A stretch of 49,725 nt of DNA, from NCBI GenBank assembly GCA_024644405.1, contig JAHELC010000014.1, positions 1-49,725 of the forward strand, read 5' to 3'. The position numbers and the translations under genes were made by a program. Below are positions 6,086 to 49,725 of this stretch, in pieces; position 1 is the stretch's first letter, and each line of letters opens with the position of its first letter. The notes below the pieces were generated by a model. That model saw nothing but the letters and a program-made list of their open reading frames with translations. It was not told where the DNA came from and ran no database searches. This DNA comes from Nitrospinaceae bacterium. Its GTDB lineage: Bacteria > Nitrospinota > Nitrospinia > Nitrospinales > Nitrospinaceae.

Positions 6086-6313
6086 TCACTTGCTATGAGT
6101 GCCGTCGCACCGCGGCGAAGTGTTGGTTTTACCGCAATCGCAGATGGCCATACGGCAAGCGCTTTCCACTTCGAATTCCATGGGCGATTTGCCTGTATTT
6201 TTGGTTTCGTGCGAACCGTCACAGTAGGGTTTATTTGCCGATTCACCACAGGTACAATAATACTTGGTTCCGGGGGTTTCATCGATATAGTGGGGACTTC
6301 CCTGATACGCCAT
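6086..6313 (-). CDS. Double CDGSH iron-sulfur protein
   Basis: 75-aa protein with two CDGSH-type [2Fe-2S] sites. The first is C20-x-C22 with C31-D-G-S-H35; the second is C58-x-C60 with C69-D-G-T-H73. Each gives the three-Cys one-His ligand set of this family (PF09360). Tandem-CDGSH small proteins are common in bacteria and are thought to serve in electron transfer or Fe-S/redox handling; the partner is unknown. The protein is soluble, with no signal peptide. A GGAG-type RBS (AAGGAG on the minus strand) stands just upstream of the ATG. It is transcribed divergently from the TIGR01777 gene. Confidence 0.92.
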   Translation of the reverse strand: MAYQGSPHYIDETPGTKYYCTCGESANKPYCDGSHETKNTGKSPMEFEVESACRMAICDCGKTNTSPRCDGTHSK

Positions 6314-6445
6314 GGAATCTCCTTAAAATAAAATGAATATTCAGTCCCCGCGCTATTAGGCGGGAAAGAAATTTTAAAAGTGTATATTATGATGTTTTTC
6401 CATGCCTAAAACAAGACCCTTCAATATGCTCCTGAAAGGAATTTG

Positions 6446-7801
6446 ATGAAAATTCTCGTTACTGGTGCCACCGGGTTCATTGGCCGGCAGGTGATTCTGC
6501 AATTAAGGGAACGAGGTCACGATGTTGCCGTGCTGACCCGCAATCCGGAAACCGCGCCGGTGCGCCTGCCGATCGCCTGTCCGGTATTTTTCTGGCACGG
6601 TGTTGACGAGCCGCCGCCACGGGAAGCATTCGAGAACGTCGACGCGGTTGTGCATCTGGCAGGTGAGAACATCATCAACCGGTGGACTTCTTCCCGCAAA
6701 AAAGAAATTATAAAATCGCGTGTAGAATCCACCCGTCAGCTGGTAACAGCGATGCAGGCGTTGGATCGCAAACCCAGAGTATTCGTGTGCGCCTCGGCTG
6801 TCGGATTCTACGGGGACCGGGGAGACGAGTTGTTGGACGAGTCCGCGGAAGCGGGTGAGGGGTTCCTCCCCGGCTTGTGCCGGCAATGGGAACAGGCGGC
6901 CCGACAGGCGGAGGAATCCGGGATTCGGGTGGTGTCCATGCGGATCGGTGTCGTGCTGGGTCACGATGGCGGTGCTTTGCTGCCCATGCTCCCCCCGTTT
7001 CGTATGGGGTTGGGTGGAAAAGTCGGATCCGGCAGGCAGTGGATGAGCTGGATTCATGTGCGCGACCTGGCAGGGCTCATTGGTCACGCTATCGAAACGG
7101 ATTCTGTGAAAAGTGCTGTGAATGCGGTCAGCCCTCATCCCGCAACCAACGTGGTATTCACCCAGACGTTGGCCGCGGTTCTGAAACGCCCCCATCTTTT
7201 TTCGGTGCCGGAATTTGTCTTGAAGATCCTGATGGGCGAAGCGTCCCAGGTGGTCCTCACCAGTCAGCGAGTGATGTCCCGTAAAGCGGCCGGATACGCA
7301 TTCGTGTTTCCGGAGTTGCGGGCGGCATTGGAGGATATTTGCAGTCAGGAGGATCACGTGCTGCTGCTGGAGCAATGGGTGCCCCGGCCCATCGATGAAG
7401 TCTTCGCGTTTTTCAGCGATGCCCAAAACCTGGAGTTGTTAACACCGCCGCATCTGCGGTTTAAAGTGCTGGGTTCTTCCACGAATCCGCTGCAATCCGG
7501 AACGCTCATCGACTACAAACTGCAACTGCATGGCATCCCGTTCCGCTGGCAGTCATTGATCGGCGAATGGAACCCGGTGACCCATTTCAGCGACACGCAA
7601 ATGCGTGGTCCTTACAAAAAATGGCACCACACCCATACCTTCATAGAACAGGACGGCGGCACCCTGATCCGCGATCATGCCGTATACCGGATACCTTTTG
7701 GCGTTCCCGGCGATGCAGTGGCGTATTATTTCGTCAAGAAAGATCTCGAAAAAATATTCGGCTACCGCGTTGCCAAAGTTCGCGAGTTGTTCGGTGAATA
7801 A
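6446..7801 (+). CDS. TIGR01777-family epimerase with C-terminal SRPBCC domain
   Basis: Two-domain protein of 451 aa. The N-terminal part is an extended SDR with the Rossmann motif GATGFIG (residues 7-13). It is followed by the DUF1731-type tail (SQRVMSRKAAGYAFVFPEL, about residues 270-290) that defines the YfcH/SDR39U1 family. From about residue 305 (LEQWVPRPIDEVFAFFSDAQ) a SRPBCC/START-like ligand-binding domain follows, a fusion seen in several lineages. Substrate is unknown. The ATG at 6446 has GAAAGGA five bases upstream; a TTG one codon earlier is a poorer choice. The stop overlaps the start of the next gene, so the two are probably translated together. Confidence 0.88.
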   Translation: MKILVTGATGFIGRQVILQLRERGHDVAVLTRNPETAPVRLPIACPVFFWHGVDEPPPREAFENVDAVVHLAGENIINRWTSSRKKEIIKSRVESTRQLVTAMQALDRKPRVFVCASAVGFYGDRGDELLDESAEAGEGFLPGLCRQWEQAARQAEESGIRVVSMRIGVVLGHDGGALLPMLPPFRMGLGGKVGSGRQWMSWIHVRDLAGLIGHAIETDSVKSAVNAVSPHPATNVVFTQTLAAVLKRPHLFSVPEFVLKILMGEASQVVLTSQRVMSRKAAGYAFVFPELRAALEDICSQEDHVLLLEQWVPRPIDEVFAFFSDAQNLELLTPPHLRFKVLGSSTNPLQSGTLIDYKLQLHGIPFRWQSLIGEWNPVTHFSDTQMRGPYKKWHHTHTFIEQDGGTLIRDHAVYRIPFGVPGDAVAYYFVKKDLEKIFGYRVAKVRELFGE

Positions 7802-44095: not shown

Positions 44096-44491
44096 ATGCC
44101 TAAAGGAAAAGTTCTGATCATCGATGATGAAAGTGATGTGCGAGATGTCTTGAAGTTTCATTTGAGTGAAAATAACTACCAGGTCATTGAGGCTGAAAAT
44201 GGTCAAGAAGGTATCGACCTGCTTAAGTCCGGAGACAACTTGATCCATGTAGGGGTCATTTTATGTGACATCCGGATGCCCAAGGTTAATGGCATTGAAT
44301 GCATCCAATATCTTCGCCAGGAAGCTCCCGGGATTCCCATTGTTGTAGTGACCGGATTTCCGGATACGCAGATGGCGGTAAATTTACTGAATGAAGGCGT
44401 TAAGGATTATCTGGTCAAGCCTGTGGAAAAAGAAAAACTGGTAGCCACAGTAGAAAAATTGATAGCTGGCGGCAAAGAAATCAATTTTTAA
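44096..44491 (+). CDS. Single-domain response regulator (CheY-like)
   Basis: 131 aa, a lone receiver domain. Acidic residues are in LIIDDESDV (D10/D11), phospho-acceptor D58 in ILCDIRMPKVNG, the conserved Thr in VVVTGFPD, and Lys in YLVKPVEKE. No output domain, so it must act by protein-protein contact or phosphotransfer. It lies between a NarL-type pair and a PAS-HisKA kinase, either of which could phosphorylate it. AGGAG ten bases upstream of the ATG is a good RBS. A 13-bp inverted repeat follows it. Confidence 0.93.
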   Translation: MPKGKVLIIDDESDVRDVLKFHLSENNYQVIEAENGQEGIDLLKSGDNLIHVGVILCDIRMPKVNGIECIQYLRQEAPGIPIVVVTGFPDTQMAVNLLNEGVKDYLVKPVEKEKLVATVEKLIAGGKEINF

Positions 44492-45944: not shown

Positions 45945-47240
45945 ATGGACACAAATTCAATTGTCTCAAAAAGCCTGGATAAAATTGATTCTGCAGAACA
46001 GGAAATTCGTCAAAGAACCGAAGAATACCGGGTTCTTCATGAGGTGGCCAGGGTTCTTCATAACTCTCAGGGCTTGAAGAAAAAGCTCGAAAATACCCTG
46101 AAAGTCCTTACTCAATTCAAAGAGCTTGAAGTCGAATATAAGGCCGGAATTTTTCTTGCAGATGAAGAAAAAAGAGTCTTAAAGCTCTTCAGTACTATCG
46201 GAAATTTCACAGAGGAGTTTCTGGAAAAGGAACAGGAAATTCCATATGGAAATTGTTTGTGCGGTAGAGCCGCGATATCTGGAGAAATGATAATCAGCGA
46301 AAGTTGTTTTTCTGATAAACGCCATGAAAATATTTTTAAGGATATGACCGATCACGGGCATTACATCGTGCCTTTAAAAAGTCAGGAGAAAATGATTGGA
46401 GTTCTTTTTCTATACACCGATGCCAACCCTCCCTGGTATGTGCGAAGCCAGGAAATTCTGCTCTCCATTGGCGGGCTGATCGGAGACGCAATTGTGTCTC
46501 ACAGGAGAGGGGAACAAATCCTCGAGAACAATAAACAACTAAAAGAACTCAATGAACTTAAAAATAAGTTTTTAGGAATTGCCTCTCATGATTTAAGAAA
46601 TCCGCTTTATTTGATTCGATCCTTCAGTGAAATATTGAAAGATGAATCGGTAGGAGCGGTCAATCCAAAGCAAAAGGACCTTTTGCTGAAAATATTTAAT
46701 GCCAGCAATTTTATGCGGGCCCTCTTGGAAAATCTTTTGGATATTTCAAAAATTGAAAGTGGCAAAATCGAGTTAAGCAAAAAAGTTCAGGACCTCAATT
46801 CAATTGTAAGGCAGCAGGTGGAGTTGAGCCAACTTATGGCAGATAAAAAGAAAATAAACCTTCAGCTGGACTTGGAAGATCTACCACCCATTTCTTTTGA
46901 TCAAGATGCGATTACGCAGGTGATTGGAAATTTTATTGGAAATGCGATTAAATTCTCACCTTTTAATACAAAAATTATCGTTACCACAGAAAATCAAATA
47001 GAGAACATCAGGTTTTCAGTTGGTGATGAAGGCCCTGGAATATCTGAAGAAGATCAAAAATTGTTATTTAAAGAATTTCAAACTCTCAGCGCCAAACCCA
47101 CCGGGGGGGAAAAATCCACTGGATTGGGATTGGCAATAACCCAAAAGCTTATCCATCTTCACTCCGGTCAAGTTGGAGTAGAGAGTCAACTGGGAAAGGG
47201 GTCAACTTTTTTCTTTACACTCCCTCTCCACTGGAAATAG
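45945..47240 (+). CDS. GAF sensor histidine kinase
   Basis: 431 aa, cytoplasmic. A GAF domain (~25-190) very similar to that of the first kinase retains the same Cys/His set: C104 and C106 (GNCLCGR), C121 (SESCF), H127, H137 and H139 (DHGHY). HisKA with H215 in ASHDLRNPLYLIRSFS, and HATPase ~310-431 with GNAIKFSPF, DEGPGI and STGLGLAI. Unlike the first kinase it lacks the PAS domain and belongs to the HisKA (not HisKA_3) class, so it should signal to a different partner. It follows the NtrB-like kinase by 180 bases. Confidence 0.93.
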   Translation: MDTNSIVSKSLDKIDSAEQEIRQRTEEYRVLHEVARVLHNSQGLKKKLENTLKVLTQFKELEVEYKAGIFLADEEKRVLKLFSTIGNFTEEFLEKEQEIPYGNCLCGRAAISGEMIISESCFSDKRHENIFKDMTDHGHYIVPLKSQEKMIGVLFLYTDANPPWYVRSQEILLSIGGLIGDAIVSHRRGEQILENNKQLKELNELKNKFLGIASHDLRNPLYLIRSFSEILKDESVGAVNPKQKDLLLKIFNASNFMRALLENLLDISKIESGKIELSKKVQDLNSIVRQQVELSQLMADKKKINLQLDLEDLPPISFDQDAITQVIGNFIGNAIKFSPFNTKIIVTTENQIENIRFSVGDEGPGISEEDQKLLFKEFQTLSAKPTGGEKSTGLGLAITQKLIHLHSGQVGVESQLGKGSTFFFTLPLHWK

Positions 47241-47956: not shown

Positions 47957-48006
47957 GAATGAAAACTAATAAGAGGGCGAATGACTTTTAAAGGAGAAAT
48001 AGGAAA

Positions 48007-48138
48007 ATGAAAACTCTCTACAGCACCTCTATGCTCCGGTTTTTGGTTGCCCAGGGGTTTATTCTGGCTTTGATGGGATTCACCTCATCTTCTGTTTTTG
48101 TGGGTCACGCAGCGGATCATCCTGATGCCGACCCTTGA
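48007..48138 (+). pseudogene. Truncated exported protein (signal peptide only)
   Basis: The ATG at 48007 has AAAGGAG about nine bases upstream, as good as any RBS in the window. It encodes a signal peptide (basic start, LRFLVAQGFILALMGFTSSSVFVGHAA) and then only DHPDADP before a stop. The gene therefore breaks off right after the cleavage site. At the break the sequence changes into an ATP synthase b-type subunit in another frame. I read this as a real gene cut by a chimeric join or rearrangement near 48113-48125. Confidence 0.75.
48100..48130. other. Composition and content junction
   Basis: To the left lie a normally started secreted-protein gene and sequence of ordinary composition. To the right the DNA is GC-richer with frequent CGCG and Ala-GCG codons, and starts in the middle of an ATP synthase subunit without its membrane helix. 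The most economical reading is a join of two unrelated sequences. The precise base cannot be fixed; 48113-48125 is my best estimate. Confidence 0.7.
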
Positions 48139-48472
48139 CCTCATGGACCGCCGCGACGATCAAGTCAAGGCGAACGCGGAGACGGCGGAAAAGCATATCG
48201 CCGAAGCAAAGTCGCTCGAACGCCGGTACGCGGAGGAAATGGCGAGCGTGCGCCGCGCGGCGAGCGTGGAACTGGACGCGGCGCGCCGCGAAGGCATGAT
48301 GGCGCGGGCAGCGGCGGTGCAAGAACGCAAGAAATCGGCGGAACACGAAGTACAGACAATCGTTGCGGCCGCCCAAAAGGCGGTGGAAGAAGAGCGCAAG
48401 AAATTCGGCGCACTGGTACCGGGCTTGGCCGAACGCATGGCCAAACGGCTCGAATTGGGTGACCGATCATGA
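48125..48472 (+). CDS. atpF: ATP synthase F0 subunit b-type, 5' truncated
   Basis: The readable part starts MPTLDLMDRRDDQVKANAETAEKHI, a typical b/b' subunit cytoplasmic coiled coil rich in Ala, Glu, Arg and Lys. The membrane helix that should precede it (about 25 residues) is absent; upstream sequence in this frame comes from the truncated exported gene. In-frame starts at 48098 (TTG) or 48125 (ATG) have no RBS. Subunit b holds the F1 stator. Its stop overlaps the next ATG (ATGA), as in an atp operon. Confidence 0.75.
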   Translation: MPTLDLMDRRDDQVKANAETAEKHIAEAKSLERRYAEEMASVRRAASVELDAARREGMMARAAAVQERKKSAEHEVQTIVAAAQKAVEEERKKFGALVPGLAERMAKRLELGDRS

Positions 48473-49257
48473 GCCCGACGAAACGGTTTCTGCTCGTATT
48501 CGCGCTGGTGTATGCCGTGCTCGGGGTCGGCGGCCAAAAGTTTTTCGGGCCGCCCGGCTACTCGGCCGAGTATATGGAAGCGCACAAGGACGGGCACGAG
48601 CGATATCTCGGCATTACCAAGAGCACGGTGTACAAGAAGTACATTCAACAAGGCGAAGCGGCGCCCCGGGACGATGAATGGGCCGGCATGATCGATCAGG
48701 TTGCATTCGTCAAAGCGTACGAGGCGGATCCTGAATTTCAGGCAGAGTCGCAACGCCGTGCGATCTACAATTACTTTTACGGGTTCTTGAACGCGGGCGG
48801 CCTCATGTTGATCGCGTTTCGTTTCGGCCGCGCGCCGATCCTTGGATTTCTCGACACGCAGATCGCAGTGGTCCGTAAGCGATTGGAACGCGCGGAAAAG
48901 GTTAGGTCAACGGCCGCTGAACGGCTCGATGCGGCGACACAACAGATAAACGGCCTCGAGGCGGACGAACTGGCGGCGAAGGCGCACGCTGGGGAGTTGA
49001 TGGCACGCGAACGCGAAGCGATGGAAGAAGCCACGGCCGTTGCCCTTGCGTTTATCGATCAAGAAACCGAAGATCGTAAACGGATCGCGGCCGAGCAAGC
49101 GGTCAAAACGTTGCGCGAGGAACTGGTCAATGAAGCCGCACTCGCCGTCGCCAAAGACTATCGATCGAATCGTTCCGATGTGACGGAGTCCGCTGAAATC
49201 GACTCCTTTGTCCGCGGACTTACCGGCCGCACGGTCCACGAAAGCGTCCCGAAATGA
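48469..49257 (+). CDS. atpF: ATP synthase F0 subunit b with N-terminal extension
   Basis: 262 aa; b subunits are usually ~160 aa. The C-terminal part fits: one transmembrane helix (~99-117), then GRAPILGFLDTQIAVVRKRLERAEK and a long coiled coil. Before this there are about 95 extra residues: another hydrophobic helix (~6-22) and an acidic/basic segment (YMEAHKDGHERYLGITKSTVYKK). This extension is unusual and may come from a particular lineage. Overlapping starts (ATGA) join it to the previous and next genes. I use atpF for this and the previous gene as a b/b' pair without assigning which is which. Confidence 0.8.
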   Translation: MSPTKRFLLVFALVYAVLGVGGQKFFGPPGYSAEYMEAHKDGHERYLGITKSTVYKKYIQQGEAAPRDDEWAGMIDQVAFVKAYEADPEFQAESQRRAIYNYFYGFLNAGGLMLIAFRFGRAPILGFLDTQIAVVRKRLERAEKVRSTAAERLDAATQQINGLEADELAAKAHAGELMAREREAMEEATAVALAFIDQETEDRKRIAAEQAVKTLREELVNEAALAVAKDYRSNRSDVTESAEIDSFVRGLTGRTVHESVPK

Positions 49258-49725
49258 CCAACGCGCTGATTGCGGATCGGTATGCAAAGGCACTTAGCGC
49301 CGCCATCCCGAACCACGAAGATTTGGATGCGAATCTGGATGCGCTGGACGCATTGAGCGATATTTTCGCGGAAGCTCCACAACTGTTCGGCGTGCTGAAG
49401 GACGCCTCTATCACCGTCAATGTGCGGCAGAGCGTGTTGGAAGCCGTCTTAAAGAAACTGGAAGCGCCCGTGCCAGCGCACAACGCCGCGGTGCTCATGT
49501 TTCGGCGCCACCGCATCCGGCTGTTGCCGATAGCGGTGCAGATGTTCCGTCGGCGCGTGGACGACCGGTGCAACCGCGTGGCGGCGATGGTTACGTCGGC
49601 GATTCCGCTGACGGACGAACAAGCGGCGCCATTGGCGATCGGCCTGCAAGACTACATTGGTCGCGAAGTTCGGATGGACCGGCGCGTGGATGAAGCGATC
49701 GTGGGCGGCGTTATCGCCGAGGTCG
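49254..49725 (+). CDS. atpH: ATP synthase subunit delta, 3' partial
   Basis: Starts at an ATG overlapping the preceding stop and runs off the window end after about 157 codons. ADRYAKALSAAIPNHEDLDANLDALDAL at the N-terminus and the C-terminal IVGGVIAEV (the usual IGGxxIxV strand) identify the OSCP/delta subunit linking F1 to the b stalk. Gene order b-b-delta agrees with atp operons. Composition matches the two upstream genes and not the rest of the window. Confidence 0.92.
   Translation, partial: MTNALIADRYAKALSAAIPNHEDLDANLDALDALSDIFAEAPQLFGVLKDASITVNVRQSVLEAVLKKLEAPVPAHNAAVLMFRRHRIRLLPIAVQMFRRRVDDRCNRVAAMVTSAIPLTDEQAAPLAIGLQDYIGREVRMDRRVDEAIVGGVIAEV

Follow-up and report, generated by a model that had tools for sequence, protein, structure and literature searches.

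Near its right end, a contig of a Nitrospinaceae draft genome passes from a secreted-protein gene into the middle of an ATP synthase subunit, and both genes are cut at the same place. Does this junction belong to the organism or to its assembly? The window analysed here is the complete contig C2 (49,725 bp), one of the 40 contigs that make up the 2.98 Mb draft genome of the host (completeness 95.84%, contamination 3.53%). Sequence comparisons lead us to read the end of C2 as a contig chimera, with a probability of about 0.96.

Two genes cut at one point

The open reading frame that starts at 48007 encodes a signal peptide and spans 43 amino acids (MKTLYSTSMLRFLVAQGFILALMGFTSSSVFVGHAADHPDADP), up to a stop codon at 48136-48138. 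From about 48089 it is overlapped by the frame of an ATP synthase b subunit that lacks most of its N-terminal membrane helix: LLFL is all that is left of the helix, and upstream of it the b frame is host sequence with stops. The truncated b is followed, with an ATGA overlap, by a 262-aa b-like protein, and then by a delta/OSCP protein that leaves the contig at its end. The junction sequence is clean, without N. GC content changes there from 0.39-0.52 to 0.58-0.61, and the frequency of CGCG from 3.8 to 15.4 per kb.

An earlier note, made from the letters of the DNA, had described a signal-peptide gene cut shortly after its signal region, a b-type subunit without membrane helix in the overlapping frame, b-type and delta genes with ATGA overlaps behind it, and a tail richer in GC and CGCG. 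We recover this anatomy as it was given. The junction had been placed at 48090-48140; C2 diverges from the true genome sequence after base 48100, inside that range.

The host genes to the left of the junction include a response regulator gene at 44096, in addition to those in Table 1. The superoxide dismutase gene is 91% identical in one genome of the same genus, where the upstream genes are also the same.

Table 1. Features around the junction in the window (positions on contig C2).
Feature	Position	Strand	Remarks
Sensor histidine kinase with GAF domain	45945-47240	+	Pfam HATPase_c, HisKA, GAF; in G031, G033 and G023 its homologue lies close to those of the C21 cytochrome genes
Cu/Zn superoxide dismutase (sodC), final intact host gene of C2	47296-47871	+	Pfam Sod_Cu, 84 bits
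106 bp identical to the C21 terminus	47995-48100	+	C21 194760-194865, minus strand; overlap of truly adjacent contigs
Probable chimeric ORF, truncated	48007-48138	+	Residues 1-31, signal peptide of a secreted cytochrome c; remainder, probably foreign sequence up to a chance stop; gene complete (242 aa) on C21
CTTCTGTTTTTG, possible microhomology at the breakpoint	48089-48100	.	Host sequence, also on C21; LLFL in the b frame
ATP synthase subunit b, probably foreign; the junction removes its N-terminal membrane helix	48095-48472	+	Pfam ATP-synt_B, 31 bits; 59% over 125 aa to JAJDAB010000704.1
Probable foreign tail of the chimera	48101-49725	+	1,625 bp; no other copy in the genome; composition outlier; b' distribution
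Probably foreign b'-type subunit, 262 aa, N-terminal extension	48469-49257	+	60% over 257 aa to a Hydrogenedentota protein
Probably foreign ATP synthase delta, cut by the contig end	49254-49725	+	Pfam OSCP, 97.7 bits; 64% to a Hydrogenedentota protein

Continuation of the host sequence

The 106 bp of C2 that end at the point of divergence recur with 100% identity as the terminal 106 bp of C21 (194,865 bp), another contig of this assembly, on its minus strand. Followed along C21, the cut reading frame becomes a complete protein of 242 aa (P0001), composed of the signal peptide, a Gly/His-rich stretch and a cytochrome c domain with matches to the Pfam families Cytochrome_CBB3 and Cytochrom_C. 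The host sequence thus continues elsewhere in the assembly, where the frame is completed. At least six related cytochrome c-domain genes are clustered near this contig end (C21 180000-194865), beside the continuation of the cut gene.

At its left end C2 has an exact overlap of 121 bp (positions 1-121) with the end of contig C40 (53912-54032). This second exact overlap indicates that unmerged contig ends occur elsewhere in the assembly. C40 is probably the neighbour of C2, so that the two could be merged, and the true order of the contigs is likely C40, C2 and C21, the last on its minus strand.

As long as only two contigs are considered, the 106-bp overlap is symmetric, and it would be compatible with a correct junction in C2 and a misassembled end of C21. 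The gene neighbourhoods of relatives speak against this. In three of them, G031 (one single contig of 2.53 Mb), G033 and G023, the response regulator and histidine kinase of C2 have homologues that are at most a few kb away from those of C21 genes. On the C21 side, the neighbours are a cytochrome c and a small DUF-type protein, to which the larger cytochrome protein of C21 is added in G031 and G033. Gene order differs among the three genomes, and C2 and C21 genes are neighbours in all of them (3/3); the cytochrome homologue in G023 aligns from residue 1, signal region included. Since homologues of C2 and C21 genes adjoin in three relatives, C21 is taken as the true continuation. The C21 gene is full-length and its intact homologues elsewhere are flanked by homologues of genes from both contigs, whereas the C2 version consists of two cut genes and a switch at the level of phylum. 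An error at the end of C21 is therefore extremely improbable, and C21 as the chimeric partner was ruled out by the neighbourhoods in the three relatives.

The conserved unit in these relatives is a kinase-DUF-cytochrome neighbourhood, not a pairing of sodC with the cytochrome. Adjacency of the latter two was sought in relatives and none was seen, and the pairing therefore has no part in the argument; in the same-genus genome that has the 91% identical sodC, other genes lie downstream of it.

Origin of the tail

A second copy of 48090-49725 was sought in the whole host genome and not found. The host's own ATP synthase b and delta genes sit on contig C39, and the delta protein of the tail is 27% identical to the C39 delta. 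Among GTDB species genomes, a scan gave one match for the tail: contig JAJDAB010000704.1 from a metagenome-assembled genome (MAG) of Candidatus Hydrogenedentota, which carries ATP synthase a, c-type, b, b', delta, alpha and gamma genes. Gene order is identical, and the proteins share 59% (b), 60% (b') and 64% (delta) identity. As in the Hydrogenedentota-type operon, b is followed by a 262-aa b' with an N-terminal extension and then by delta, the genes overlapping.

The b' protein separates the two sides of the junction by taxonomic affinity. At E <= 1e-8 it has no match in 76 other genomes of the host's phylum, and it is matched in 35 of 68 genomes of the MAG's phylum, at up to 61% identity. 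Its N-terminal extension measures about 100 aa, and relatives in the MAG's phylum cover nearly the whole length of 262 aa.

Composition differs between the sides as well. By tetranucleotide frequencies the tail is at a distance of 0.492 from the host, farther by a narrow margin than any of 351 overlapping host windows of its length (maximum 0.485); the distance to the Hydrogenedentota contig is smaller, at 0.297. The earlier note had proposed this comparison as well as a search of b and delta against genomes; the best named match of both proteins is the Hydrogenedentota MAG.

Some bacteria carry two F-type ATPases, and one could imagine the tail as a second ATP synthase native to this organism, located beside a signal-peptide reading frame that is truncated naturally. 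Such an enzyme would have a b subunit without its membrane helix and a b' that all 76 other genomes examined from the phylum lack; the tail is, moreover, a composition outlier, and the signal-peptide gene is complete on C21. This explanation is hardly credible, and it was rejected on the absence of b' from the phylum together with the truncated b.

Judging from the protein matches, the donor of the tail is most likely a Hydrogenedentota bacterium of the same sample. No sequence close to 100% identity, as expected of the donor itself, was found; identity to the best match is about 60%.

The matching operon has a particularity of its own. At 6208-7188 of JAJDAB010000704.1, directly before a normal c subunit of 111 aa, lies a gene whose 326-aa product consists of four ATP synthase c-like hairpins fused to one another, with four Pfam ATP-synt_C stretches. 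On visual inspection, the Glu found in GQAVSESTGIY of the 111-aa protein is missing from all four hairpins. This c-like protein may have a structural or regulatory role, or belong to an unusual mixed rotor.

Nature of the breakpoint

The last 12 host bases before the divergence encode LLFL in the b frame, and at the corresponding place the b protein of the Hydrogenedentota contig reads LLFLWVTQ. As Leu-Leu-Phe-Leu can be encoded in both genes, host and donor may share up to 12 bp at the breakpoint, a length that is deduced from the protein match. Owing to these possibly shared bases, the breakpoint may lie anywhere in 48089-48100. A join at such a stretch would cut both genes at the same base, which would explain why they are cut at one point.

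Possible microhomology of this kind would equally suit illegitimate recombination, and the clean junction without N also speaks for a real non-homologous recombination or horizontal transfer. In that case, part of a Hydrogenedentota operon would have entered the host, or a sub-population of it, and disrupted the cytochrome c gene. However, the cytochrome c gene is intact on C21, in the same assembly; the tail lacks a far end, breaking off where the contig does; b is cut within its membrane helix; and b' is present in no relative among the 76. A non-homologous rearrangement, one of two options that the earlier note had left standing, is thus very unlikely. We regard as equally unlikely that a recent natural illegitimate recombination put Hydrogenedentota DNA into a sub-population of the host and that both alleles were assembled.

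The other option, a chimeric contig, is supported by the intact continuation on C21, the neighbourhood in relatives and the Hydrogenedentota-like tail; the chimera itself is established by these sequence comparisons. Its host part ends at 48100, the true continuation running into the minus strand of C21 through the complete gene of the secreted cytochrome c. To it, a 1,625-bp fragment of the b, b', delta operon of another bacterium was attached at a short, possibly shared stretch. The step that created the chimera was presumably either an error of the assembler or of gap closing, or a chimera already present in a library molecule or read.

The junction is not a biological feature and holds no biological novelty. 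The 48 kb before it are genuine host sequence, and the last 1.6 kb of C2 should not be counted as such, which guards against mistaking a foreign ATP synthase for a second host ATPase or for the result of gene transfer. Quality checks made on whole contigs may miss so short a foreign end.

Comparison with known systems

On its host side, the junction interrupts a secreted c-type cytochrome with a Gly/His-rich stretch, known here from P0001 and its homologues in G031, G033 and G023, which is the true continuation of the cut reading frame; compared with the complete protein, the window holds only the first 31 residues. On its other side, the tail shares with the F-type ATP synthase operon of JAJDAB010000704.1 the order of b, 262-aa b' and delta and the overlapping genes. 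Of that operon, the window has b' complete, and b and delta only in part.

Taken as a whole, the end of C2 resembles the chimeric contigs of metagenome-assembled genomes, which likewise switch phylum near a contig end, in the middle of genes, and have their true continuation at the terminus of a different contig. It differs from the usual misassembled contigs in the stretch shared at the breakpoint, which at no more than about 12 bp is below the usual assembly k-mer. A shared stretch this short points to a chimeric molecule or read, or to a scaffolding or gap-closing step, as the probable source of the junction.
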